Of a stretch of 11,119 nucleotides of DNA, positions 1-11,119 are shown one piece after another. The stretch's first letter is position 1; each line of letters opens with the position of its first letter. The DNA is taken from assembly GCA_027484885.1 (NCBI GenBank), contig JAIXSD010000769.1, forward strand, positions 1 to 11,119, read 5' to 3'. Under the pieces are notes generated by a model. It was not told the origin of the DNA. It did not search any database and saw only the letters and a list, made by a program, of their open reading frames with translations. A program made the translations under genes and the position numbers. The DNA is from Rubrivivax sp. GTDB lineage: Bacteria; Pseudomonadota; Gammaproteobacteria; Burkholderiales; Burkholderiaceae_C.

Positions 1-816
1 GACGAAGTTCCACCACATCTCGATCTCGGCCGGGAAGGGCTCGCCGCCCAGCAGCAGCAGGCGGCCGCCGGCGCTGAGGCGCAAAGACGCGGGCGCCTGC
101 CCCGGCGCCAGATAGGCGAGCTCGCCCGTGCCCAGGGTCTCGCCGGCCAGGCCCAGCTCGCCTTCCAGCGGCAGCAGGCCATGTTCGAAATCGCCGCGCA
201 GATCCAGCTGCAGCTCGACCGCTTCGTTCGGCGCGTGGATCTCCAGGCCCAGCAGCGGCGTGTAGACCTGCGGCGGCGCTGTGCGGCCGGCGTGGCTGCC
301 GGCCAGCAGGGTCCATTGCGCGCCCTGCGCCTGCCAGCGCGGCAGGCTGGCATGGTGTTCGAAGGCCGGGGCCCGATCTTCCTCACCCGGGGGCAGGGCG
401 ATCCAGAGCTGGGCGGCGTGGATGCGTGCGGTGCCGGCGGGCGCATCCTCGGTGTGCACGATGCCGTGCCCGGCCGTCATCAAGTTCACCTCACCGGGTC
501 GGATCAGCTGCTCGCTGCCCAGGCTGTCGCGGTGCAGGATCTCGCCCTCGATCATCCAGGTGAAGGTCTGCAGGCCAATGTGCGGGTGGGCGCCAACATG
601 CATTCCACCGTTCTCCAGCGCCTGACCCTCAAACTGCACGGGGCCGATGTGGTCCAGAAAACACCAGGCGCCGACCCGGCGCCGCTGCTTGGTGGGCAGG
701 GCGCGGCGGATGGTCAAACCTTCGCCCAGCTCGGTGCTGCGAGCGTGGATGCGGTCGAAGGGGGCGGCGGGGGTGTTGCTGCTGTTGTTGTCGCTATTGT
801 TCATGCTCTGGCTCAT
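1..816 (-). CDS. Pirin family protein (bicupin), 3' end outside window
   Basis: Pirins are cytosolic two-cupin metalloproteins; some act as quercetin 2,3-dioxygenases and others as redox-sensing partners of enzymes or transcription factors. 272 residues are visible and the reading frame runs off the left edge. The N-terminal cupin carries the pirin metal site: the HPH pair at H77 and H79 and the HTE motif at H121 and E123 match the family's four iron ligands, with the conserved HRDSLG stretch at 95-100 between them. The second cupin (about 190-272) is present up to a WWNF motif at the edge. The ATG at 816 is chosen because GGAG lies about 8 bases upstream; an in-frame ATG at 804 is the alternative. 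The first 18 residues are a Ser/Asn-rich low-complexity lead. The family is certain; the substrate is not predictable from sequence. Confidence 0.93.
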   Translation of the reverse strand, partial: MSQSMNNSDNNSSNTPAAPFDRIHARSTELGEGLTIRRALPTKQRRRVGAWCFLDHIGPVQFEGQALENGGMHVGAHPHIGLQTFTWMIEGEILHRDSLGSEQLIRPGEVNLMTAGHGIVHTEDAPAGTARIHAAQLWIALPPGEEDRAPAFEHHASLPRWQAQGAQWTLLAGSHAGRTAPPQVYTPLLGLEIHAPNEAVELQLDLRGDFEHGLLPLEGELGLAGETLGTGELAYLAPGQAPASLRLSAGGRLLLLGGEPFPAEIEMWWNFV

Positions 817-944
817 GCGAGGGCTCCGGGGGGGGTGGGGGACATCATCGCCCGAAAAGAGCAAGCAAGGCCCGCAGCGGGGTCCACGCGGCGGGCTTGG
901 GGGCGGGCATTCTTGCGGCTGAGCCTCAGCCTGCGATCAGCCCA
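817..944. other. Intergenic leader of the pirin gene
   Basis: This gene-free stretch separates the pirin start from the regulator remnant. It holds a run of eight G at 828-835 followed by T and five G, just upstream of the pirin ribosome-binding site. It also holds a GC-rich imperfect inverted repeat (AAGGCCCGC at 867-875 against GCGGGCTT at 891-898, one bulged base). The repeat could be a worn terminator or a leader hairpin. I see no convincing -35/-10 pair for the pirin gene. Confidence 0.4.
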
Positions 945-1257
945 GTTGTTTCTGACGCGCAGGCGCTCAATGTCGGCGTGACCGGCTTTGTCTCGGTGTG
1001 CATCGCCACGCACACGCAGGAATGCTTGGTTCGATCGCTTCCGCGCCACCGTGCAGGCGATTCCCGAGGTGGACGATGTCTACAGGTTGAGCGGCGAGGT
1101 CGACTACCCGCCGCGCGTCGTCGTGCCCGACATCTTCGCCTACGACGCGGTCTACAAAAGACTGACCGTCGGCACGCAGCTTTTCGATGTCGGCTCCAGC
1201 TTCGCGATGGAGTTGCTGAAGTTCACGACGGCACTGCCGTTGTCCTATGTCCGGTGA
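945..1257 (+). pseudogene. Lrp/AsnC family regulator remnant (ligand-binding half, frameshifted)
   Basis: The two pieces together give the C-terminal RAM/AsnC ligand-binding domain of an Lrp-type regulator. The first piece (945-1022) reads ALNVGVTGFVSVCIATHTQE. The second (1024-1257) runs from AWFDRFRATVQ through DVYRLSGEVDY and FAMELLKFTTALPL to a TGA. They lie in different frames, and dropping the single T at 1023 joins them as HTQE-AWFDRF, which fits the family alignment. The N-terminal helix-turn-helix is absent: I found nothing resembling it upstream to position 817. Residues usually conserved also look changed, such as two prolines in VDYPPRVVV where Leu-Leu is usual. The gene is therefore dead and cannot make a DNA-binding regulator. 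It differs from the intact Lrp gene at 7318 and is not a copy of it. Confidence 0.85.
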
Positions 1258-1460
1258 GTGCGCAGGCGGCGCCCCAAGCATGCGGACTCTGACCTCGTTG
1301 ACCCTGGGACCCGTTTTGCACAGACCATGGCTGCACAACTCGCTGGCGGGTTCAGGGCAACTGATGTGCCAGCTCTAGGCTGATGTGAGTCACTCGCTTG
1401 GCTCGCATGAGTGGCAGCTATCGCGAACACCAGTCATGGATACCGGCGACTTGAAATGAC
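1258..1460. other. Intergenic region between Lrp remnant and TIR gene 3' end
   Basis: About 200 bases contain no gene I can recognise. Short open frames on both strands have no family resemblance and no ribosome-binding sites. The G+C content looks lower than in the flanking housekeeping genes, as in the TIR gene. Nothing resembles a transposase end or a tRNA-type attachment site. Confidence 0.4.
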
Positions 1461-1467
1461 TCAAGTC
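1448..1467 (-). repeat. Stem-loop overlapping the TIR gene stop codon
   Basis: GACTTGA and TCAAGTC form a perfect 7-bp inverted repeat around a 6-base loop. Outer CCG/CGG bases (1443-1445 and 1468-1470) could extend the stem across a two-base bulge. The right arm includes the TGA stop of the TIR-DnaB gene at 1461-1463. No T-run follows on the minus strand, so it is not a standard intrinsic terminator. It may protect the mRNA 3' end or act as a weak terminator. Confidence 0.4.
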
Positions 1468-3077
1468 CGGCTCAGGAGGTGATCCGCCAAACTCTCCGCG
1501 AAAAGGCGCCCTGCTTCATAGGGTACCGCTGTCCCATCAGACAGCTTGGGCACCGGTATGGCGACACCGAGCGCATCGGTCTCGGACTCAAGACTGCCGC
1601 CAATTTGGTGGAACTCGGTAACGGCCGTTTGGAATTTCGAAACGGCGGCTAGTCGATGCTCCTCTTGCACAGATTGCAAAACCCGATGCCATGCAACCAC
1701 TTCCCTGCCCCGCTCAAACTGCGCGGCCAACAAGTTTGGCCTTTCCGCCCCCGCCACATCAGGCGGCGCGAGGTTAACGAGCCTTCCGGCATCTTTCGAA
1801 AGGGCGAGCTTTACGGTCGCAACAACGCCACTCTCTCGTTGCTTCGCAACGATGACCTCGACAACGTCCGGCTCTAAGGACGTCCAGCTGTAGAGCGAAT
1901 CCCTGTACATGAAGAGCACGACGTCAGTGTATGGATCGATTTCACCAACCTCTTTTAAGTCACTCAGATATGGCCTCTTGTCAGCACGCGTCTCGACCGT
2001 TCGGGTCAGATGAGAAGTGAGCAAAATCGGGCAGTTGTACTCACGCGCAAGCTTCTTCAGTTCACGACAGATTGCAGCCGAGTCATCTGCGACACCGCCC
2101 ATTAACTCCTGAAGTGAGTCCACCACTACGGCACCAAGCGCGCCCGAAAGTCTTGCCCGTTTCCCGACCTCGACCTTCACCTCAGCGATGGTCGTATCGG
2201 GTGAGTCGTAGACAAACAGCGCCGCGCGTCCCAATCTGTCAACCGCCTCGGATAAACGGCCCCATTCATCATCGCTTAGAGCACCTATCCGAAGACGTGC
2301 CTGCGAGATGTTGCCGGTCAAGCAAACTAGCCTATCTGCGGTCTGACGTGCTGATGTTGCAGGTGCGAAGACGACCACCGGCAATCCCTCCACGGTCGCG
2401 ACATGTTGCGCCACCTCTAGTGCGAAGGTGGTCTTACCAGTCTCCGGTCGACCTGCAAGGAGGTTCAGGGTTCCAGGCTGAAGTCCGGCGGTGATGCCGT
2501 CTAAGTCAATAAAGCCTGTCCGAACGCCTGTCACTGGCTCAGCTCCATGCTCGGCCAGCTCTGAGACGCGGTCAATTACCTGGAGAATCAGGTCTTCAAT
2601 ACTGTGTCCCTTCTCGGATTCAACTGGCAGCCGTTGCTCCGTCGGGGCATGACCGGCATTGGCTCGCCTGCGTGACGTCACGGCCTTCACCACTTGGTCA
2701 ACGACGTGGTGCAACCCCTTTGAGGTCGGGGCGGCCAACTTGTCTGCCAACGGGGGCGAGAACTTGACGATGTCGTCGCGACATACGTTGTGCCAAATGG
2801 GCAGGATCACTGTTGCCTTGCCGTCTTCGCGTGCGACTAGCCCATCCAGTTCCTTGTTTGGCCACTCCTTCTGAAAAAAGCTGGGGCTCAAGACAACAAC
2901 GCCGAAGCTCGAATTAGCCAGGCCTTCGTCGATCCTGCGACGCAGGCTGTCTCCTATGCAGAGCTCCATCTCGTCCAACCAGACACGAAACCCACGGCCG
3001 ATGAGTTGTTGAGCGAGCGGCCGAGCGATCTCATCCTTGTCTTCGCTGGCGTGGCTGATAAAGATGTCATATTTCAT
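1461..3077 (-). CDS. TIR domain-DnaB-like helicase core fusion, candidate defence protein
   Basis: The 538 residues comprise a TIR domain (about 2-135), a variable linker, a helix at about 159-177 resembling the DnaB linker helix, a DnaB C-terminal RecA-like core (about 180-440) and a 100-residue tail I cannot assign. The TIR part starts MKYDIFISHASEDK and has E76 in WPNKEL, the position of the NADase glutamate in SARM1-type TIRs. The core keeps the VTGVRTGFIDLD entry, Walker A GRPETGKT (209-216), Walker B VVVDSLQ (D320), SHLTR (355-359), the ADKRPYLSDLKEVGEID loop (K375, E376, G378) and KQR with the presumed arginine finger R414. The catalytic Glu of the DnaB SLEM motif appears to be Ala (A240). 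The DnaB N-terminal domain is replaced by TIR. ATG 3077 fits TIR family starts; an in-frame TTG at 3104 has the better ribosome-binding site. Domains are clear; a defence role (ring-forming sensor plus NAD+-depleting effector) is inference. Confidence 0.88.
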   Translation of the reverse strand: MKYDIFISHASEDKDEIARPLAQQLIGRGFRVWLDEMELCIGDSLRRRIDEGLANSSFGVVVLSPSFFQKEWPNKELDGLVAREDGKATVILPIWHNVCRDDIVKFSPPLADKLAAPTSKGLHHVVDQVVKAVTSRRRANAGHAPTEQRLPVESEKGHSIEDLILQVIDRVSELAEHGAEPVTGVRTGFIDLDGITAGLQPGTLNLLAGRPETGKTTFALEVAQHVATVEGLPVVVFAPATSARQTADRLVCLTGNISQARLRIGALSDDEWGRLSEAVDRLGRAALFVYDSPDTTIAEVKVEVGKRARLSGALGAVVVDSLQELMGGVADDSAAICRELKKLAREYNCPILLTSHLTRTVETRADKRPYLSDLKEVGEIDPYTDVVLFMYRDSLYSWTSLEPDVVEVIVAKQRESGVVATVKLALSKDAGRLVNLAPPDVAGAERPNLLAAQFERGREVVAWHRVLQSVQEEHRLAAVSKFQTAVTEFHQIGGSLESETDALGVAIPVPKLSDGTAVPYEAGRLFAESLADHLLSRT

Positions 3078-3079
3078 AC

Positions 3080-3094
3080 GGCCTAGTCTAGGCC
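3080..3094. promoter_or_regulatory. Perfect palindrome abutting the TIR-DnaB ATG
   Basis: GGCCTAG-T-CTAGGCC is a perfect inverted repeat with 7-bp arms and one central base, ending two bases before the ATG at 3077. If that ATG is used, the palindrome occupies the place of the ribosome-binding site, where no Shine-Dalgarno sequence is visible. It could then be an operator or an mRNA hairpin limiting translation. If the TTG at 3104 is used, it lies inside codons 4-9. Confidence 0.45.
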
Positions 3095-3104
3095 TTGCCG
3101 ACAA

Positions 3105-3432
3105 AGCCCCTCTCCCGCAAGTTGCAGTGAAACTGCGCCACCTACAGTTGACTTTCGTGCCGCCCGCGGCGCGTCATGCCGAGCGACCGTTTAATGGCGG
3201 TCAGCGTGGGTTGCGCCTGTTCGGGCGGAGGACTGCTACCGCTGCAAAGCCATAGCCGCCGCAACGTCATGCCCAAGCGCTTGCTCAGCGCAAACATGCG
3301 CTTAGATCTATGCCGATCATCACCCGCACGGCCCCCGCATCGCCTCTGAAGTCCTCCGTGTCTCCGTGACTCTGTGGTCGCTTCCTGCTGTTCAAACGCC
3401 AGCGCAGACGCAATCACGCAAAAGCCCAAAGA
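3105..3432. other. Gene-free region upstream of TIR-DnaB with short repeats
   Basis: No reading frame here looks like a real protein. The stretch contains a GGGAGAGGGG ribosome-binding-like sequence on the minus strand just before TTG 3104, and a small hairpin GCAGT-GAA-ACTGC at 3124-3136. CGTCATGCC occurs twice (3172-3180 and 3265-3273), and an 8-bp tandem repeat lies at 3354-3377. The minus-strand translation contains SLGMT- and TTESRRHGG-like strings, which I remember as typical of spurious ORFs over dispersed intergenic repeats in high-G+C proteobacteria. The TIR-DnaB promoter should lie here, but I cannot place it with confidence. Confidence 0.45.
3354..3377. repeat. Imperfect 8-bp tandem repeat, three units
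   Basis: The units are CTCCGTGT, CTCCGTGA and CTCTGTGG. On the minus strand this reads CCACAGAG-TCACGGAG-ACACGGAG, a phrase that, from memory, recurs in intergenic DNA of many bacterial genomes. It is more likely part of a dispersed repeat than a local regulatory site. Confidence 0.55.
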
Positions 3433-3461
3433 AAAAGCCCGCCGTATCCGGGCGGGCTTTT
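3433..3461 (-). terminator. Intrinsic terminator of the oxidoreductase gene
   Basis: AAAAGCCCGCC and GGCGGGCTTTT form an 11-bp perfect stem around a 7-base loop. On the minus strand the stem runs into TTTTTCTTT, giving a textbook Rho-independent terminator 24 bases after the TGA of the oxidoreductase gene. The A/T edges could let it work in both directions. Confidence 0.88.
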
Positions 3462-3484
3462 GTGTCCAGCTGAGTGCCTAACGA

Positions 3485-6400
3485 TCAGGCCTGCTGCTTC
3501 CACTGCTGCATCAGCGATTCCCACTTGGCCTTGGCCGCGTGGACATGGCGTTCCTTGACATGGCCATAACCGCGGATCTCCTCGGGGATGCGGGCGATCT
3601 CGGTGGCCAGCTTGAGGCGCTCGGCGGTCAGGCCCTTGGCCAGGATGGCTTCGATGCTGGCGCGGTACTCGCCAATCAGAGCGCGCTCCATCTTGCGCTC
3701 GGCGGTGTAGCCGAAGACGTCCAGCGCCGTGCCGCGCAGGCCCTTGAGCTTGGCCAGCAGGCCGAAGGCCGGGCGGACCCAGGCGCCCATCTGCTGCTTG
3801 ACCAGCTCGCCCTTGGCGTTCTTCTTGGCCAGCAGCGGCGGGGCCAGGTGGTGCACCAGCTTGTAGTTGCCTTCGAACTGGCTGGCCACCTTCTCGACAA
3901 AGCTCTTGTCGGTGTGCAGGCGGGCGACTTCGTACTCGTCCTTGTAGGCCATCAGCTTGAACAGGTACTTGGCCACGGCCTCGGTCAGCGCGGTGCTGCC
4001 CAGGCTGCCCTCGGCCGCGCGCACCTTCTCGACGAAGGCCTTGTACTGCGCGGCATAGGCGGCGTTCTGGTAGCCGGTCAGGAAGTCCACGCGCTTGGCC
4101 ACCAGCTCGTCCACGCCGGGGCGCTTGACGATGTTGATGACCTGGCGGGCAGCGTACAGACCTTGCACGGCGGCCAGATCGATGGCGCAGCGACGGCCCC
4201 ACTCGAAGGCGGCCTTGTTGTTGTCGATCTGCACATTGTTCAGCTCGATGGCGCGCATCAGGGCGGCATAGCTCAGGGGCACGCGGCCCTTTTGCCAGGC
4301 GTAGCCCAGCATCAGGGGGTTGGTGTAGAGCGAGTCACCGATCAGCTTGACGGCCACTTCCTCGGCATCAAACAGGCCCAGATGCTCCTTGCCCACCGCG
4401 GCCGCCACCGCAGCTTCGCAGGCGGCGCCGGGGAAGCTCCAGTCGGCGTTGTTGACCAGGCTGGCGGTTGGCGAGCCGTGGGTGTTCAGCGCCACAAAGG
4501 TGTGGCCTTCGCGCATGACGGCCAGGGTGCTCTTGTTGGCGGCGACGATGGAATCGCAGGCGATCACCAGATCGGCCTCGGCCGTGCCCACCTTGGTGCA
4601 GTGGATGGCGTCGGCGCTGTTGGCGATCTGGATGTGGCTCCAGGTGCTGCCGCCTTTTTGCGCCAAGCCGGCCGCGTCCTGCGTGATCACGCCCTTGCCT
4701 TCCAGGTGGGCGGCCATGCCCAGCAGCTGGCCGATGGTGATGACGCCGGTGCCGCCGACGCCGGCCACGACGATGCCCCAGGCCTTCTCGGCGTTCGGGA
4801 TCACCGGCTGCGGCACCGTGCCCAGGGCGGCATCGAAGGGGCTCAGGCGCTTGTCCTTCTTGGGCTTCTTGAGCTCGCCGCCTTCAACGGTGACGAAGCT
4901 GGGGCAGAAGCCCTTGACGCAGCTGAAGTCCTTGTTGCAGGTGTTCTGGTTGATCTGGCGCTTGCGGCCGAAATCGGTGTCCAGCGGTTCGATGGACAGG
5001 CAGTTGGACTGGATGCTGCAGTCGCCGCAGCCTTCGCAGACCAGCTCGTTGATGAGCACGCGCTTGGCCGGGTCGGCCAGCTTGCCGCGCTTGCGGCGGC
5101 GGCGCTTTTCGGTGGCGCAGGTCTGGTCGTAAATGATGGCGGTGGTGCCGGGGATCTCGCGGAACTGGCGCTGGATGGCGTCGAGCTCGTCGCGGTGGTG
5201 CACGGTCACGCCGGACAGCAGGGAGACGCCCATGTACTTGTCCGGCTCGTCAGTAACGATCACCAGCTTGGCCACGCCTTCCGAGACCAGGCTTTGCATG
5301 ATCTGCAGCACGGTGTGGCCTTCGGCGCGCTCACCCACCTGCTGGCCGCCGGTCATGGCGACGGCGTCGTTGTAGAGCACCTTGTAGGTGATGTTCACAC
5401 CCGAGGCGATGCTCTGGCGGATCGCCAGGATGCCGCTGTGGAAGTAGGTGCCGTCACCGAGGTTGGAGAAGATGTGCTTCTCGTTCGTGAAGGCCGACTG
5501 GCCCACCCATGGCACGCCCTCACCGCCCATCTGGGTGAAGGTGGCGGTGTTGCGGCCCGGCATCCAGGTGACCATGTAGTGGCAGCCGATGCCGCCCACG
5601 GCGCGCGAGCCCTCGGGCACGCGGGTGCTGGTGTTGTGCGGGCAGCCCGAGCAGAACCAGGGCGTGCGGTCGGCGCCGCCGGCGGTCTTCTCTTCGGCCT
5701 TGAGTGCGTTTTCCTTGCCGTCGATCAGGGCCACGCGGGCGTCCAGGCGGGCGGCCACATCGGCGTCCACGCCGAGCTTCTTCAGGCGCTTGGCAATCGC
5801 GCGGGCGATGATGGCCGGGGTCAGGTCAGCCTGCGGGCGCAGCAGCCAGTTCTTGCTCGGGTTGGCCATGCCCCATTCGCCACCCAGGGCGCCGGAGTCG
5901 GCGTCGTCGTCGAACTTGCCCAGCACCAGCGGGCGCACATCGGGGCGCCAGTTGTAGAGCTGTTCCTTGATTTGGTATTCGATGACCTGGCGCTTTTCTT
6001 CCACGACCAGGATCTCTTGCAGGCCGTCGGCGAAATCACGGGTGATGGTCGCTTCCAGCGGCCAGACCACATTGACCTTGTGCAGGCGGATGCCGAGGCG
6101 GCGGCAGGTGTCGTCATCGAGGCCCAGGTCATGCAGCGCCTGGCGGGTGTCGTTCCAGGCCTTGCCGCTGGCGATGATGCCGAAGCGGTCCTTCTCGGTG
6201 GCGATGACGTTGTAGTTCAGCTTGTTGGCGCGCACATAGGCCAGGGCGGCGTACCACTTGTGGTCCATCATGCGCGCTTCCTGGTCCAGCGGCGGGTCGG
6301 GCCAGCGGATGTGCAGGCCGCCTTGCGGCATGGGGAAGTCGTCCGGCGTGATGATCTGGACGCGGTCCGGGTCGACGCTGACCGAGGCGGAGGATTCGAC

Positions 6401-7048
6401 GATCTCCTGGATCGTCTTCATGCCCGACCACAGGCCCGAGAAGCGGCTCATGGCAAAGGCGTGCAAGCCCATGTCCAGGATGTCCTGCACGCTGCTGGGG
6501 AAGAACACCGGGAAGCCGGCGGCCTTGAAGACGTGGTCGCTCTGGTGGGCGGCGGTGGAGCTCTTGGCGATGTGGTCATCGCCGGCAATGGCGATCACGC
6601 CGCCATGCTGGGCCGTGCCGGCCATGTTCGCGTGCTTGAACACATCGATGCAGCGGTCCACGCCCGGGCCCTTGCCGTACCAGATGCCGAACACGCCGTC
6701 GAACTTGGCTTTTTCCTTGAACAGGTCCAGCTGCTGCGTGCCCCAGACGGCGGTGGCGCCGAGTTCTTCGTTGACACCGGGCTGGAAGACGATGTTCTGC
6801 TTGGCCAGATGCTTCTTGGCTGCTTGCAGGGCCTGGTCATAGCCACCCAGCGGCGAGCCACGGTAGCCCGACACAAAGCCGGCGGTGTTGAGGCCCTGGA
6901 TGGCATCGCGCGTGCGCTGCAACATGGGCAGGCGGACCAGGGCTTGCACCCCGCTCATGAAGGCGCGGCCGCTGTCGAGCGCGTATTTGTCGTCCAGCGT
7001 GACCTTCTCGAGCGCGCGCAGGATGTGGTCGGGCAGGGGAGCATTCAT
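3485..7048 (-). CDS. Indolepyruvate ferredoxin oxidoreductase family protein (fused subunits)
   Basis: This 1187-residue cytosolic enzyme should oxidatively decarboxylate aryl-2-oxoacids such as indolepyruvate or phenylpyruvate to acyl-CoA, reducing ferredoxin, in aromatic amino-acid breakdown. The start MNAPLPDHILRALEKVTLDD and RAFMSGVQALVRLP open the pyruvate-oxidoreductase alpha-like region. A WFCSGCPH motif (C466, C469) precedes the thiamine-diphosphate domain, with GDG at 531-533 and its partner N560. A cysteine cluster follows (C671, C674, C677, C683, then C704, C710, C715), fitting iron-sulfur binding. The gamma-type domain starts at GVGGTG (763-768), and a C-terminal DUF6537-like region runs from about 890. 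Length and order match the one-chain proteobacterial form. ATG 7048 matches family starts although its ribosome-binding site is weak; ATG 7111 would add 21 residues. The gene is divergent from an Lrp regulator and ends before a strong terminator. The exact oxoacid is uncertain. Confidence 0.95.
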   Translation of the reverse strand: MNAPLPDHILRALEKVTLDDKYALDSGRAFMSGVQALVRLPMLQRTRDAIQGLNTAGFVSGYRGSPLGGYDQALQAAKKHLAKQNIVFQPGVNEELGATAVWGTQQLDLFKEKAKFDGVFGIWYGKGPGVDRCIDVFKHANMAGTAQHGGVIAIAGDDHIAKSSTAAHQSDHVFKAAGFPVFFPSSVQDILDMGLHAFAMSRFSGLWSGMKTIQEIVESSASVSVDPDRVQIITPDDFPMPQGGLHIRWPDPPLDQEARMMDHKWYAALAYVRANKLNYNVIATEKDRFGIIASGKAWNDTRQALHDLGLDDDTCRRLGIRLHKVNVVWPLEATITRDFADGLQEILVVEEKRQVIEYQIKEQLYNWRPDVRPLVLGKFDDDADSGALGGEWGMANPSKNWLLRPQADLTPAIIARAIAKRLKKLGVDADVAARLDARVALIDGKENALKAEEKTAGGADRTPWFCSGCPHNTSTRVPEGSRAVGGIGCHYMVTWMPGRNTATFTQMGGEGVPWVGQSAFTNEKHIFSNLGDGTYFHSGILAIRQSIASGVNITYKVLYNDAVAMTGGQQVGERAEGHTVLQIMQSLVSEGVAKLVIVTDEPDKYMGVSLLSGVTVHHRDELDAIQRQFREIPGTTAIIYDQTCATEKRRRRKRGKLADPAKRVLINELVCEGCGDCSIQSNCLSIEPLDTDFGRKRQINQNTCNKDFSCVKGFCPSFVTVEGGELKKPKKDKRLSPFDAALGTVPQPVIPNAEKAWGIVVAGVGGTGVITIGQLLGMAAHLEGKGVITQDAAGLAQKGGSTWSHIQIANSADAIHCTKVGTAEADLVIACDSIVAANKSTLAVMREGHTFVALNTHGSPTASLVNNADWSFPGAACEAAVAAAVGKEHLGLFDAEEVAVKLIGDSLYTNPLMLGYAWQKGRVPLSYAALMRAIELNNVQIDNNKAAFEWGRRCAIDLAAVQGLYAARQVINIVKRPGVDELVAKRVDFLTGYQNAAYAAQYKAFVEKVRAAEGSLGSTALTEAVAKYLFKLMAYKDEYEVARLHTDKSFVEKVASQFEGNYKLVHHLAPPLLAKKNAKGELVKQQMGAWVRPAFGLLAKLKGLRGTALDVFGYTAERKMERALIGEYRASIEAILAKGLTAERLKLATEIARIPEEIRGYGHVKERHVHAAKAKWESLMQQWKQQA

Positions 7049-7317
7049 GGTGGGGATCTCGGCTTGTCTCGGGGTGGAACCGGGCTGGCTGCTGCCGCTT
7101 GTGGCGGCCATGCTCCCGTGTGCGTTGGATGCCGGCACAGGGTGCGGCACAGTATGTCCGGCCTGCAGGCCCTGTGTACAGGGCCGCAGCACGGATTTGC
7201 CCTTCAAAAAGGCAGGCGCCAGTGTAGGGAAAGGGCCGCGAGCGGTGCTTTCTATTTGGTCTTGGAAACCCAGGCGCTGAGCAATAATCTTTCCAGCAAT
7301 CTGTTTTGGGGCAAGAA
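7049..7317. promoter_or_regulatory. Divergent promoter region, oxidoreductase and Lrp genes
   Basis: These 269 bases must carry the start signals for both divergent genes. They hold an 18-bp palindrome at 7168-7185, a direct repeat CGGCACAG at 7133-7140 and 7145-7152, and an A/T-richer patch next to the Lrp start. In that patch AGCAAT occurs at 7280-7285 and again at 7295-7300, 15 bp apart. Lrp-type regulators often bind A/T-rich sites close to their own promoter, so the patch may be an autoregulatory site. No canonical sigma-70 pair stands out on either strand. Confidence 0.5.
7168..7185. promoter_or_regulatory. 18-bp palindrome, candidate operator
   Basis: GGCCCTGT-GT-ACAGGGCC is an inverted repeat with 8-bp perfect arms and a 2-base centre. 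Flanking TGC and GCA extend it with one extra base on the left. It sits about 120 bases upstream of the oxidoreductase start and 130 upstream of the Lrp start. With so short a centre it fits a dimeric DNA-binding protein better than an RNA terminator, and no T-run follows on either strand. The G+C-rich arms are unlike typical Lrp sites, so another regulator may bind it. Confidence 0.5.
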
Positions 7318-7908
7318 ATGGCATCGAGAAAGCCCGGACCTAGTAAAAACCCGCAGTCTCTCGACGGGGCTTTGGACCCGGCCACGGACGCGGGCGCCGA
7401 TGCCAGCGCGGCCGCGGACGCGCCCCAGGGCGACACCCTCGACCGCTATCACATCGCCATCCTGGCCGAGCTGCAGCGCGATGCGCGGCTCTCCAATGCC
7501 GAGCTCTCGGCCCGCATCGGCCTGTCCACCGCGCCCACCTGGCGGCGCGTGCGCTGGCTGGAGGAGCAGGGCTTCATCACCGGCTACCGCGCCGAGATCG
7601 ACCGCCGCAAGATCGGCCTGGGCGTGCTCGCCTTTGTGCGCGTGGACGCCGACCGCAACACCGGCACCTCGACCAAGCCGCTGGAAGACGCGCTGCGCCA
7701 GCTGCCCGAGGTGATCTCCTGCCACTACATCTCGGGCGCCGGCACGTTTGAGCTGCAGGTGCTGGCCACCGACCTCGACGCCTTCAGCCGCTTCACCATC
7801 GACACGCTCTTGCACCTGCCCAATGTCAAGGACGTGCACACCAGCTTCTCGCTCGGCGAAGTGAAGGCCGGCGGCGGCGTGCCGCTGCGGCATTTGCGCG
7901 GCGGCTGA
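7318..7908 (+). CDS. Lrp/AsnC family transcriptional regulator
   Basis: This 196-residue regulator should bind DNA as a dimer or octamer and sense an amino acid or related metabolite. Residues 1-38 are a disordered-looking Ala/Asp/Pro-rich lead that most Lrp proteins lack. The winged helix-turn-helix spans about 41-90 (DTLDRYHIAILAELQRDARL, then SNAELSARIGLS and WRRVRWLEEQGFI). The RAM ligand-binding domain spans about 100-190 and includes LPEVISCHYISGAGTFELQV and the VKDVHTSFSLGEVK ending. The ATG at 7318 is preceded by GGGGCAAGAA; an in-frame TTG at 7306 adds four residues. Divergence from the oxidoreductase gene suggests that it controls that gene and itself. The helix-turn-helix is intact, unlike the remnant at 945-1257. 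The ligand is unknown; an aromatic amino acid or its oxoacid is a guess from context. Confidence 0.93.
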   Translation: MASRKPGPSKNPQSLDGALDPATDAGADASAAADAPQGDTLDRYHIAILAELQRDARLSNAELSARIGLSTAPTWRRVRWLEEQGFITGYRAEIDRRKIGLGVLAFVRVDADRNTGTSTKPLEDALRQLPEVISCHYISGAGTFELQVLATDLDAFSRFTIDTLLHLPNVKDVHTSFSLGEVKAGGGVPLRHLRGG

Positions 7909-7934
7909 GGGGCGGCTGAAGGGCAGCCACGGTC

Positions 7935-8522
7935 ATGGCCTGGGCCGATCTGGACGCCATCGCCGCCCGCCAAAGCCAGGCGCTGCGGCGGGCCATGCGC
8001 GCGGCGGCGCGCCGCAGCAATGGCGAGCAGTCGGGCCTGCGCCTGCTGGGCCAGGGCGTGTTCGGCTTGTTGCTGTGCCTGTTGCCGCTCTGGGCGCTGG
8101 GCTTTTGGGGCTTGATCTTCTGCGCGCCGGGGTTGTGGTTCTTTGTGATGCCGGCCTTGGTGGAAGGGCTGCCCGAGCTTTGGGTCTGGGCCGCGCCGGC
8201 GCGCTGGGCCGATGTGCAGGGTCAGCGCTACAGCTTCATGGGCGCCTATCTGCACATCGAGCGTGACGCCGAGGGCCAGCCCTGGCTCTCATGCGAGGAA
8301 GTGCGCGCCGCGGGTGTCGACCTGCCGCAAGCCTGGATCGTGCAAGCCCGGCTGGACCCGGCGCGTTGCCGCCTCGATGCGCGCGGCCGGCGCCTGCAGC
8401 TGCGCGCCGATGCCTTGCTGGCCGGCCTGCAGGGCACGGCCCAGCCGCGCGGCCACAAGTTCGCGCTCTGGCTGCAGCGGGTGGTGATCTACCCTGCCGA
8501 CCGCGCGGCGCGGCGGCGCTGA
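7935..8522 (+). CDS. Hypothetical membrane protein
   Basis: I do not recognise a family for this 195-residue protein. It starts with a positively charged Ala/Arg-rich helix (about 1-32). A hydrophobic block of Leu, Trp, Phe and Gly follows (about 37-75), long enough for one or two membrane segments. From about 85 there is a soluble region with tyrosine and acidic residues (GQRYSFMGAYLHIERDAEGQ) and then an Arg/Leu-rich end. The arrangement suggests an inner-membrane protein with a cytosolic C-terminal domain. It begins 27 bases after the Lrp gene on the same strand, so co-transcription is likely, though a functional link is unproven. Codon use matches its neighbours, which supports a real gene. 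Confidence 0.72.
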   Translation: MAWADLDAIAARQSQALRRAMRAAARRSNGEQSGLRLLGQGVFGLLLCLLPLWALGFWGLIFCAPGLWFFVMPALVEGLPELWVWAAPARWADVQGQRYSFMGAYLHIERDAEGQPWLSCEEVRAAGVDLPQAWIVQARLDPARCRLDARGRRLQLRADALLAGLQGTAQPRGHKFALWLQRVVIYPADRAARRR

Positions 8523-8610
8523 GCGGCGGCCCCGCCGAGCGCGGCCCCCATTAGGGCGGTGTTCGCCACACACTTTCGGCAGGGCCGCCGGCAGCCCAGA
8601 GAATGAGGCC

Positions 8611-9513
8611 ATGAGCACCAGCGCCCGACTGCCTTTCCGCCACTTCCTGCTTGCCCTGGCCGTGGTGGCCATCTGGGGCAGCAATTTTGTGGTGATCCGC
8701 CTCGGGCTCAACGCCCTGCCGCCTTTGCTGTTTGCCACCCTGCGCTTCAGCCTGGCGGTGCTGCCGGCGGTGTTTTTCCTGCCGCGCCCGCCGCTGCCCT
8801 GGCGCAATCTCGCCAGCTACGGGCTCTTGATCGGCGTCGGCCAGTTCGGCCTGCTGTTTCTGGCCATGCGCGGGCCGCAGCCGGCCATCTCGCCGGGCCT
8901 GGCCTCGCTGGTGATCCAGACCCAGGTCTTCTTCACCCTGATGCTGTCCATGCGCCTGACGCGCGAGCCGGTCAAGGGCTACCAGTGGCTGGCCCTGGGC
9001 CTGGCCGCCTCGGGCATTGCCCTGATCGCCAGCCACACGGACGGCAGCGCCACGCCCCTGGGTTTGCTCATGGTGCTGGCCGCGGCCTTCAGTTGGGCCT
9101 GCGCGAACATGGTGGGCAAGCAGGCCGGGCGGGTGAATATGCTGGCCTATATGGTCTGGACCAGCGTGTTCGCCGTGCCGCCGCTCTTGCTGCTGTCGCT
9201 GTTGGTCGAGGGGCCGCAGGCCATGGCCGCGGGCCTGAGCCACGCCGGCTGGGGCACCTGGGCGGCGGTGCTCTGGCAGGCCCTGGGCAACACCTTGTTC
9301 GGCTACGGCGTCTGGGGCTGGCTGCTGGCCCGCCATGCGCCGGCCACCGTCGTGCCCATGGCCTTGCTGGTGCCGGTCTTCGGCATGAGCACCGCAGCCC
9401 TGGTGTTGGGCGAAGGCCTGCCGGCCTGGAAGCTGATCGCCGCCGGCTTGGTGCTGGCCGGCCTGGCGCTGAATCTGCTGTGGCCGCTGCGCCCGGCCCG
9501 CACACGCCCCTGA
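8611..9513 (+). CDS. eamA: EamA-type drug/metabolite transporter, probable O-acetylserine/cysteine exporter
   Basis: This 300-residue inner-membrane transporter of the DMT superfamily has about ten hydrophobic segments and two EamA repeats (about 10-140 and 150-290). From memory it resembles E. coli EamA (YdeD, 299 residues), which exports cysteine-pathway metabolites. Shared features are WGSNFVVIRLGL near the N-terminus, the PPLLFATLRF stretch, SPGLASLVIQTQVFFTLML, LAAAFSWACANM at the start of the second repeat, GYGVWGWLL and the VPMALLVPVFGM segment. The ATG at 8611 follows GAATGAGG, an acceptable ribosome-binding site. The gene follows the membrane protein gene by 88 bases and precedes arsA by 71 bases. 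The family is certain; the substrate is inferred from resemblance, and amino acids or other small metabolites are possible. Confidence 0.9.
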   Translation: MSTSARLPFRHFLLALAVVAIWGSNFVVIRLGLNALPPLLFATLRFSLAVLPAVFFLPRPPLPWRNLASYGLLIGVGQFGLLFLAMRGPQPAISPGLASLVIQTQVFFTLMLSMRLTREPVKGYQWLALGLAASGIALIASHTDGSATPLGLLMVLAAAFSWACANMVGKQAGRVNMLAYMVWTSVFAVPPLLLLSLLVEGPQAMAAGLSHAGWGTWAAVLWQALGNTLFGYGVWGWLLARHAPATVVPMALLVPVFGMSTAALVLGEGLPAWKLIAAGLVLAGLALNLLWPLRPARTRP

Positions 9514-9584
9514 GCATCGCTTGGGGCGCCGCTGTCTTGCGCTGGCGCATGGCTGGGGCCTCGCGGCTGCGCTAGGCTCAGCCC

Positions 9585-11119
9585 ATGGACACCTCGAACA
9601 CTCCGCGCTTCCAGTTCTTCACCGGCAAGGGTGGGGTCGGCAAGACTTCGTGCTCCACCGCCACTGCCCTGGCCCTGGCCGACGCTGGCCAGCGCGTGCT
9701 GCTGGTCAGCACCGACGCGGCCTCCAACCTCGATGAGATGCTGGCCATCCCGCTGCGCCAGCAGCCGGTGGCTGTGCCCGGAGCACCGGGCCTGTCGGTC
9801 ATGAACATCGACCCCAACCAGGCTGCCGAGGACTACCGCCAGCGCGTGTTGGCCCAGCTGGGCGCGGGCACCAGCACCGCCGAGCGCGACACCGTGCGCG
9901 AGCAGCTCAGCGGTGCTTGCACCACCGAGATCGCGGCCTTTGACGAGTTCGCCAGCCTGCTGGCCGAGGGCGCGCCCGGCTTTGACCACATCGTCTTCGA
10001 CACCGCACCCACCGGCCACACCCTGCGTCTGCTCAGCCTGCCCAAGGCCTGGAGCGGTTTTCTGGCCGACAACGATCGCGGCGCCTCCTGCCTGGGCCCG
10101 CACTCGGGGCTGAAGATGCAGGAGGCACGCTTTCAGGCCGCGCTGGCGGCCTTGTGCGACCCAGCGCTGACCGAGGTGGTGCTGGTGGCCCGACCCGAGC
10201 GCGGCGCGTTGGACGAGGCGGCGCGCAGTGCCGTCGAGCTGCAGGGTTTGGGGCTGAAGCGCCAGCGCCTCTTGGTCAACGGCGTCTTCCATGCCAGCGT
10301 GGCGGATGACCCGGTGGCTGCCTCGCTGGAAGCACAGGGCCAGGCGGCGCTGGCCGCCATGCCTGAGGCTCTGGCCGCGCTACCGCGCCGCGAGCTGCCG
10401 CTGTGGCCGGTGGACATGGTCGGGCTGGCCGCGCTGCGTGCCTTGTTTCAAGATCCCTCTACAAGCTTGCCGGCCCAAGCTTTGGGCGCTTCCGCCTTGG
10501 CGGTGCCCGATGAGGCCGCCCGCCTGTCGGCCCTGTGCGATGAGCTGGCCGCCGCCGGCCGGGGTCTGATCCTGGTCATGGGCAAAGGCGGCGTGGGCAA
10601 GACCACCATCGCCGCCGCCCTGGCCATCGGCCTGGTGCAGCGCGGCCATGCGGTGCACCTCAGCACCACTGACCCGGCCGCTCATGTGCTGCCCACGCTG
10701 CAGGGCGAGCTGCCCGGTTTGCGCGTCGATGCCATCGATCCCAAGCGCGAGACCGAGGCCTATATCGCCAAGGTCATGGCCCACAAGGGCCGGGATCTGG
10801 ATGAGGCCGGCCGCGCCTTGCTGCTGGAGGATCTGCAATCGCCCTGCACCGAAGAGGTGGCGGTGTTCCACGCCTTTTCGCGCGTGGTCAGCGAGGCGCG
10901 CAGTGCCTTTGTCGTGCTGGACACCGCGCCCACCGGCCACTCCCTGCTGCTGATGGATGCCACCGGCGCCTACGACCGCCAGATGCGCCGCGAGCTGCAG
11001 GGCACGGGCGCTGCGAGCGCACGGCTGATCACGCCGCTGATGCGCCTGCAAGACCCGGCCTACACCCGCATCCTCTTGGTCACCCTGGCCGAGCAGACGC
11101 CGGTCTCGCAAGCGGCCGC
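9585..11119 (+). CDS. arsA: ArsA-type arsenite-transporting ATPase, 3' end outside window
   Basis: ArsA is the cytosolic ATPase that drives arsenite or antimonite extrusion through ArsB; relatives include the Get3 targeting factors. 511 residues of an expected 580 or so are visible. Both halves of the bacterial ArsA are present. A1 has P-loop GKGGVGKTS (14-22) and signal-transduction motif DTAPTGHT at 139; A2 has GKGGVGKTT (333-341) and DTAPTGHS at 446. The three metal-site cysteines align with C113, C172 and C422 of the plasmid R773 enzyme, as C112 (LSGACTTEIAAFDEF), C169 (GASCLGP) and C421 (LQSPCTEEVAVF). Tandem halves plus all three cysteines favour a true arsenite ATPase over a single-domain Get3 type. 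No arsR, arsD or arsB is seen upstream; the preceding gene is the EamA exporter. The ATG at 9585 lacks a strong ribosome-binding site but fits the family start. Confidence 0.95.
   Translation, partial: MDTSNTPRFQFFTGKGGVGKTSCSTATALALADAGQRVLLVSTDAASNLDEMLAIPLRQQPVAVPGAPGLSVMNIDPNQAAEDYRQRVLAQLGAGTSTAERDTVREQLSGACTTEIAAFDEFASLLAEGAPGFDHIVFDTAPTGHTLRLLSLPKAWSGFLADNDRGASCLGPHSGLKMQEARFQAALAALCDPALTEVVLVARPERGALDEAARSAVELQGLGLKRQRLLVNGVFHASVADDPVAASLEAQGQAALAAMPEALAALPRRELPLWPVDMVGLAALRALFQDPSTSLPAQALGASALAVPDEAARLSALCDELAAAGRGLILVMGKGGVGKTTIAAALAIGLVQRGHAVHLSTTDPAAHVLPTLQGELPGLRVDAIDPKRETEAYIAKVMAHKGRDLDEAGRALLLEDLQSPCTEEVAVFHAFSRVVSEARSAFVVLDTAPTGHSLLLMDATGAYDRQMRRELQGTGAASARLITPLMRLQDPAYTRILLVTLAEQTPVSQAA

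Follow-up and report, generated by a model that had tools for sequence, protein, structure and literature searches.

A TIR-DnaB fusion family with an eroded helicase motor, a possible single-protein anti-phage system built on a decoy of the host helicase

The window, a stretch of 11,119 nucleotides from Rubrivivax sp. (assembly GCA_027484885.1, contig JAIXSD010000769.1, positions 1-11,119, forward strand), includes an open reading frame (ORF) on the reverse strand (1461..3077) whose translation of 538 amino acids (aa) joins a TIR domain to a DnaB-type helicase core. At the sequence level this protein, TIR-DnaB, represents a discrete family with an invariant TIR motif, an eroded helicase motor, kinship to host DnaB, and presence in prophages and at a site that can hold a SEFIR gene. 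TIR-DnaB is tentatively read here as a likely anti-phage system made of one protein, with a predicted NAD+-cleaving TIR joined to a motor-less DnaB domain that would act as a decoy of the host helicase. The more specific claim, which is possible yet doubtful, is that of an 'integrated decoy' receptor: a copy of the host helicase that has been stripped of its motor and fused to a TIR, baits loaders similar to lambda P and answers with NAD+ loss. In such a mechanism, the DnaB half would still form a nucleotide-bound oligomer via its linker and docking helices, and the helicase loader of an incoming phage, or another protein that seizes DnaB, would bind the false DnaB. Ligand binding would gather the TIR domains and turn on NAD+ loss, and the infected cell would halt before phage release. 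Of these steps, the binding of a loader is the most uncertain.

The N-terminal half of the protein (residues 2-131; 2685..3074, reverse strand, as are all features of the gene given below) matches Pfam TIR_2 (E 3.6e-21) and the TIR structures PDB 7uxr and AbTIR 8g83 (E 3.1e-41 for the latter). It is followed by a variable linker (residues 132-156; 2610..2684), which has a mean pairwise identity of 14% in the family and a low predicted local distance difference test score (pLDDT) at residues 143-155, and by the DnaB linker helix (LH) region (residues 157-180; 2538..2609), which aligns to residues 182-202 of E. coli DnaB and is helical at residues 160-177 in the predicted structure model. The RecA-like DnaB_C core (residues 181-437; 1767..2537) scores above the curated cut-off of PF03796 and has the DnaB fold; the score against TIGR00665, the NCBIfam equivalog of replicative DnaB, is 244.4 bits and lies below the cut-off of 385.25. 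No match to DnaB_N (PF00772) is found, and the TIR domain stands in its place. Pfam, the alignment to E. coli DnaB and the structure model together bear out the order of TIR, linker helix and DnaB core, with the TIR replacing the DnaB N-terminal domain, that had been proposed in a preliminary description of this DNA. The TIR half is absent from the structure-comparison lists of the model because DnaB chains fill these lists; the TIR assignment rests on sequence and on the secondary structure of the model. Among 50 rows of predicted viral structures, the named matches are phage DnaB or primase-helicase proteins, and none is named with the TIR-DnaB architecture. Similarly, none of the PADLOC, NCBIfam and PHROG models listed spans both halves.

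The fusion is recurrent. A search for proteins with both TIR and DnaB_C, as proposed in the preliminary description, returned at least 90 protein clusters (84 by single-sequence search and six more by profile search). Among the profile-search matches listed, the weakest full-length TIR-DnaB has an E of 1.8e-142 and the best plain DnaB an E of 1.7e-98; between them lie the truncated P0071, the 661-aa TIR protein P0097, which is without DnaB_C, and the 336-aa fragment P0127, which has both domains. The counts given below refer to an alignment of 84 sequences (the window protein and 83 others) that leaves out P0071 and P0078, the latter having an N-terminal extension; P0122-P0127 of the profile search enter no alignment count. 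The few members that carry an organism name are from Variovorax, Hydrogenophaga, Albidiferax (now Rhodoferax), Curvibacter and Limnohabitans, all of which are Comamonadaceae.

The TIR half carries a conserved effector site. Residues S8, D35, W72 and E76 are each kept in 84 of 84 members, and E76 (codon 2850..2852) sits with W72 in a WxxxE motif, in which it is the predicted NADase glutamate equivalent to E208 of AbTir, a residue reported as required for NADase activity (PMC11374754). The catalytic position earlier assigned to E76 is upheld, and the TIR half is likely an NAD+-cleaving effector. The TIR half is also the more uniform of the two, with a mean pairwise identity of 69% as against 43% in the helicase core. 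For the most closely related members with DNA, from the Variovorax gossypii locus L004 and the viral contig L029, the ratio of nonsynonymous to synonymous substitution rates (dN/dS) of the TIR is 0.05 and that of LH plus DnaB 0.08; both halves are under purifying selection in this pair.

The helicase half retains its fold, the Walker B aspartate (D320; 2118..2120) in 83 of 84 members, a full Walker A (GRPETGKT in the window protein, residues 209-216; 2430..2453) with G214-K215-[T/S]216 intact in 70, and W272, one of four invariant positions in this half, in all 84. The motor itself is eroded. The position of the DnaB catalytic glutamate, reported as E262 in E. coli (PMC6391071), aligns with A240 of the window protein (2358..2360) and holds a glutamate in 3 of 84 TIR-DnaBs versus 29 of 29 plain DnaBs; the latter (29 of the 34 listed) are top search matches, hence biased to similarity, and share a mean pairwise identity of 88% over the same core. 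The DnaB-type Gln at position 356 is kept in five members. At the position of the arginine that contacts single-stranded DNA (ssDNA; E. coli R403), which lies in the K375-E376-V-G378 loop of the window protein (1944..1955; E. coli R403, E404 and G406), R or K occurs in 7 of 84 and a gap in 20. The finger (K412-Q-R414; 1836..1844; E. coli K440 and R442) is better preserved, with K412 plus R414 exact in 31 members and R or K at 414 in 80. A motor set of six residues (the Walker A lysine, catalytic glutamate, Walker B aspartate, basic ssDNA residue, finger lysine and finger arginine) is complete in none of the 84, and the state of the catalytic glutamate amounts to two changes on the tree. The three members that retain this glutamate are all without the basic ssDNA residue. 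Because the fold and Walker A and B are kept while motor residues are lost, most members likely bind nucleotide without efficient hydrolysis, and translocation of a TIR-DnaB ring on ssDNA is unlikely.

These losses bear on an alternative in which TIR-DnaB is a sensor of ssDNA or of replication forks, with the DnaB-like ring loading on single-stranded phage DNA and thereby gathering the TIRs. Such a sensor appears quite unlikely given the infrequent basic residue and frequent gaps at the ssDNA-contact position, the near-general loss of the catalytic glutamate and the missing DnaB N-terminal tier. The preliminary description had proposed a ring that works on ssDNA; as worded, this part is not supported, as an active translocating ring is unlikely with the glutamate in 3 and a basic residue at the phosphate-contacting arginine position in 7 of 84 members. 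The architecture, the family and the reading as mobile one-gene cargo stand.

The helicase half is deduced to derive from a host-type DnaB, based on its grouping in a tree and on the rejection of a phage-DnaB grouping. The tree holds 80 LH plus core sequences (40 of the 84 TIR-DnaBs, 6 of the 29 plain DnaBs and 34 of 46 DnaBs from genomic loci) and is rooted on DnaBs from other families of the order and on three phage DnaBs. Long-branch TIR-DnaBs (P0060, P0064, P0066, P0068, P0083, P0084 and P0085), ten near-identical chromosomal rows and two distant DnaBs that had formed the outgroup were removed from a first tree of 99 rows. TIR-DnaB forms one clade (support 99/99) and groups (100/100) with the chromosomal DnaBs of the family to which the window genome belongs, together with the DnaB of V. 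gossypii and plasmid DnaBs of Hydrogenophaga and Piscinibacter; the exact position among the DnaBs of the family is weakly supported (joining fork 90/78). A forced grouping with the three phage DnaBs (KS9, P1 Ban and a Bordetella phage) is rejected (p 5e-91).

Since members are called 'replicative DNA helicase' in some sources and two copies reside in viral contigs, TIR-DnaB could be viewed as a working replicative helicase of phages or plasmids with an accessory TIR. This is highly improbable. The motor set is complete in no member, the window protein is without DnaB_N, a grouping with the three phage DnaBs is rejected, and the copy on viral contig L030 lies between terminase and portal genes and away from the replication initiator. 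The plasmid and phage collections hold no record that covers 80% of the TIR-DnaB query. Thus, homologues with the TIR-DnaB architecture are not replication helicases of phages or plasmids, a possibility that the preliminary description had named as contrary to its own interpretation.

Like the chromosomal DnaBs of the same bacterial family, TIR-DnaB has a linker helix and a C-terminal core, and the helicase half of the window protein is about 50% identical to the DnaB of its own genome; TIR-DnaB differs from these proteins in having no DnaB_N and in having mostly lost the catalytic glutamate, ssDNA arginine and Gln at 356. The identity to the host protein, the aligned linker helix and the retained docking tryptophan would also fit a guard by co-assembly, in which the DnaB half joins host DnaB hexamers and the remodelling or disassembly of these hexamers by a phage sets off the TIR. 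The linker helix is more diverged than the core among TIR-DnaBs (pairwise identity of 34% versus 43%), and a poisoned replisome would be expected to be costly. Guarding of this type is considered rather improbable.

In the decoy reading, the helicase half is bait for proteins that capture DnaB. DnaC, DciA and lambda P are reported to bind one common site on DnaB, the module of LH and the docking/determinant helix (DH), and the DH tryptophan belongs to the helix bound by helicase loaders (PMC9912922); the lambda P site on E. coli DnaB is placed at residues 291-302 (PMC6391071). In the window protein the DH covers residues 269-284 (2226..2273) and includes W272, which aligns with E. coli W294, the DH tryptophan of the loader site.

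The switch by clustering has a precedent in SpbK of Bacillus subtilis, a TIR NADase described from the mobile element ICEBs1, which is triggered when the portal ring (YonE) of phage SPbeta clusters its TIR domains (PMC12847820). SpbK and TIR-DnaB are alike in that a single gene of a mobile element encodes a TIR and a sensor domain. By contrast, in SpbK a four-helix bundle forms the N-terminal part and the TIR lies at the C-terminus, whereas the TIR of TIR-DnaB is N-terminal and its second domain is of the DnaB type. The SpbK case, together with the faster divergence of the helicase half, which suits a changing ligand, is also consistent with an anti-phage TIR triggered by a structural or other phage protein, for which the DnaB half is a mere oligomerisation scaffold. 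This explanation is unlikely: it does not account for the choice of the host replicative helicase as scaffold, and its ligand is not known.

The genomic context points to mobile cargo. The TIR-DnaB gene of the window has a G+C of 0.573 compared to 0.663 for the window overall. BLASTN against a close genome (G008, locus L113) shows a differing stretch at about 1380..3239 of the window, in which TIR-DnaB is the sole domain-bearing gene found and in which G008 instead has a gene for a PEP-CTERM-motif protein. In a sister genome (G011), the same interval, between pirin and indolepyruvate oxidoreductase, carries a gene for a 969-aa SEFIR protein (L112:9921-12830, reverse strand) that matches the SEFIR portion of the PADLOC bSEFIR profile (E 6.7e-43). 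bSEFIR is a proven defence system. The window locus has the appearance of a variable site at which defence-like genes are accommodated. The G011 protein differs from TIR-DnaB in combining SEFIR with a weak NACHT match and no DnaB. Flanking repeats that could be insertion scars of the window gene are limited to weak, short matches.

A scan of viral contigs identified 40 loci with relatives, of which L029 and L030 have the full TIR-DnaB architecture. The L029 protein is identical to P0006 of V. boronicumulans (on a contig of 1.99 Mb) and the L030 protein to P0011 of V. atrisoli (0.87 Mb); therefore, both are integrated in bacterial chromosomes. On L030, TIR-DnaB is in opposite orientation between a DUF6602 gene, which adjoins the terminase large subunit gene, and a small ORF, which adjoins the portal gene; it is far from the replication initiator and the CI-like repressor and lies outside the replication genes. 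The DUF6602 gene (L030:11320-12642, reverse strand) has a PD-(D/E)XK-like PADLOC match and may be a second cargo gene. On L029, TIR-DnaB is flanked on one side by a phage-type DNA polymerase gene, read as UmuC-like, and on the other by a small lysis-like ORF that is followed by tail genes. With two prophages and a variable site shared with a SEFIR gene, the earlier description of TIR-DnaB as a candidate single-gene system agrees with its distribution. In V. gossypii (L004), genes for a YhcG nuclease, a UvrD-like helicase, a NERD protein and a ParA-TPR protein of the PADLOC candidate PDC-M28B are found within about 10 kb and surround TIR-DnaB (L004:5448-20330); three further neighbours that were scanned have no match in Pfam or PADLOC.

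TIR domains are reported to produce cyclic ADPR isomers (PMC12847820), and the TIR of TIR-DnaB might accordingly make a signal for a partner effector encoded elsewhere, as in Thoeris, without killing by itself. The neighbours differ among the window, L004, L029 and L030 with no shared partner gene seen, the stretch that differs from G008 holds TIR-DnaB alone, and the window genes scanned include no ThsA. A signalling role of this kind is very unlikely.

TIR-DnaB is rare. Besides the window genome, 17 genomes of the same genus were covered; none of them has TIR-DnaB, and three have a TIR-only match. This sample and those that follow overlap and hold one genome per species. TIR-DnaB is detected in 1 of 399 genomes of the window's family (E limit 1e-45) and 1 of 399 of its order (E limit 1e-35), in each case the window's own genome; at most seven candidates were scored per genome in the family and order rows shown. 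In the genus of G435 (V. gossypii), G435 itself is the one positive among 101 genomes (E limit 1e-40), and a scan of the genome contig collection yields L004 as the single locus. TIR-DnaB is nonetheless a recurrent family and no one-off. An assembly artefact is rejected, as the protein is matched at 97% by the separate P0001, and L004, L029 and L030 encode full-length homologues that have no C-terminal tail.

Several observations weigh against a decoy of the host helicase. The catalytic glutamate is still present in three members, and the window protein retains K375, E376 and G378 of the DNA loop, so that the window's own member may bind ssDNA in a static manner. Viral contigs with the family number just two. 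The G011 protein matches the bSEFIR profile in the SEFIR part only, with NACHT at 26.2 bits versus a cut-off of 26.7, and the site comparison draws on two of five same-genus loci, as L114-L116 match the oxidoreductase flank only. When TIR-DnaB is forced just outside the DnaBs of the family, the approximately unbiased (AU) test gives p 0.265; strict nesting inside these DnaBs is not established. Host residues are retained at 0.41 in LH, 0.505 in DH and 0.574 in the first ten residues of DH, compared to a mean of 0.479. Special retention of the whole LH-DH module was tested and not found, the values being near average apart from W272; thus, the loader site is marked by W272 alone, a residue that may be conserved just for folding or ring contacts. 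As for a host loader, DciA (Pfam) is below the curated cut-off in all 18 genomes of the genus, with one weak match in G005; the DnaB loader of these genomes may be diverged or another protein.

Among known TIR profiles, the closest listed are PDC-S66 of PADLOC (E 1.9e-58), in which the match is confined to positions 148-278 of 282, and PHROG 15646 (E 4.1e-50); PHROG 9211 is also related. Thoeris ThsB, TIR-APAZ, SAVED-TIR and retron RT-TIR share the TIR effector domain, and their matches fall within the TIR part only; APAZ, SAVED and reverse transcriptase domains were not found in the domain scan of the window protein. Proteins related to the TIR of TIR-DnaB occur on 37 other viral loci (164-352 aa). 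Their TIR begins at residue 100 or later in 29 of 37, after another N-terminal region, and the six that were scanned have no DnaB match. Many of the TIR proteins on viral contigs L031-L068 are of about 290 aa and may include SpbK-like sensors; in the six scanned, the N-terminal 150 or so residues have no Pfam match over the cut-off. A paper on a TIR-DnaB protein was not found in open PMC full text, where the queries were partly narrow and subscription journals are mostly outside, and the passages of PMC7824862 that were covered describe no TIR-DnaB fusion.

The window protein ends in an extra C-terminal tail (residues 438-538; 1464..1766) that is otherwise seen only in P0001. The tail has no Pfam match, a search among proteins of about its own length gave no homologue, and it is predicted with low confidence to form a helix, a hairpin and a helix. 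The other window genes scanned are for pirin, an AsnC fragment, indolepyruvate oxidoreductase, AsnC and EamA. The short fragment (988-1257, forward strand), which borders the variable site, has the Lrp/AsnC ligand-binding part without the DNA-binding domain and is probably a gene remnant.

TIR-DnaB would combine a TIR effector with a sensor of a new type. A phage that depends on the replisome of its host has to get hold of DnaB, and a sensor made of a decayed DnaB would, if the reading is correct, tell which step of infection is watched. Plants have integrated-decoy receptors, and TIR-DnaB would then be their direct bacterial counterpart.
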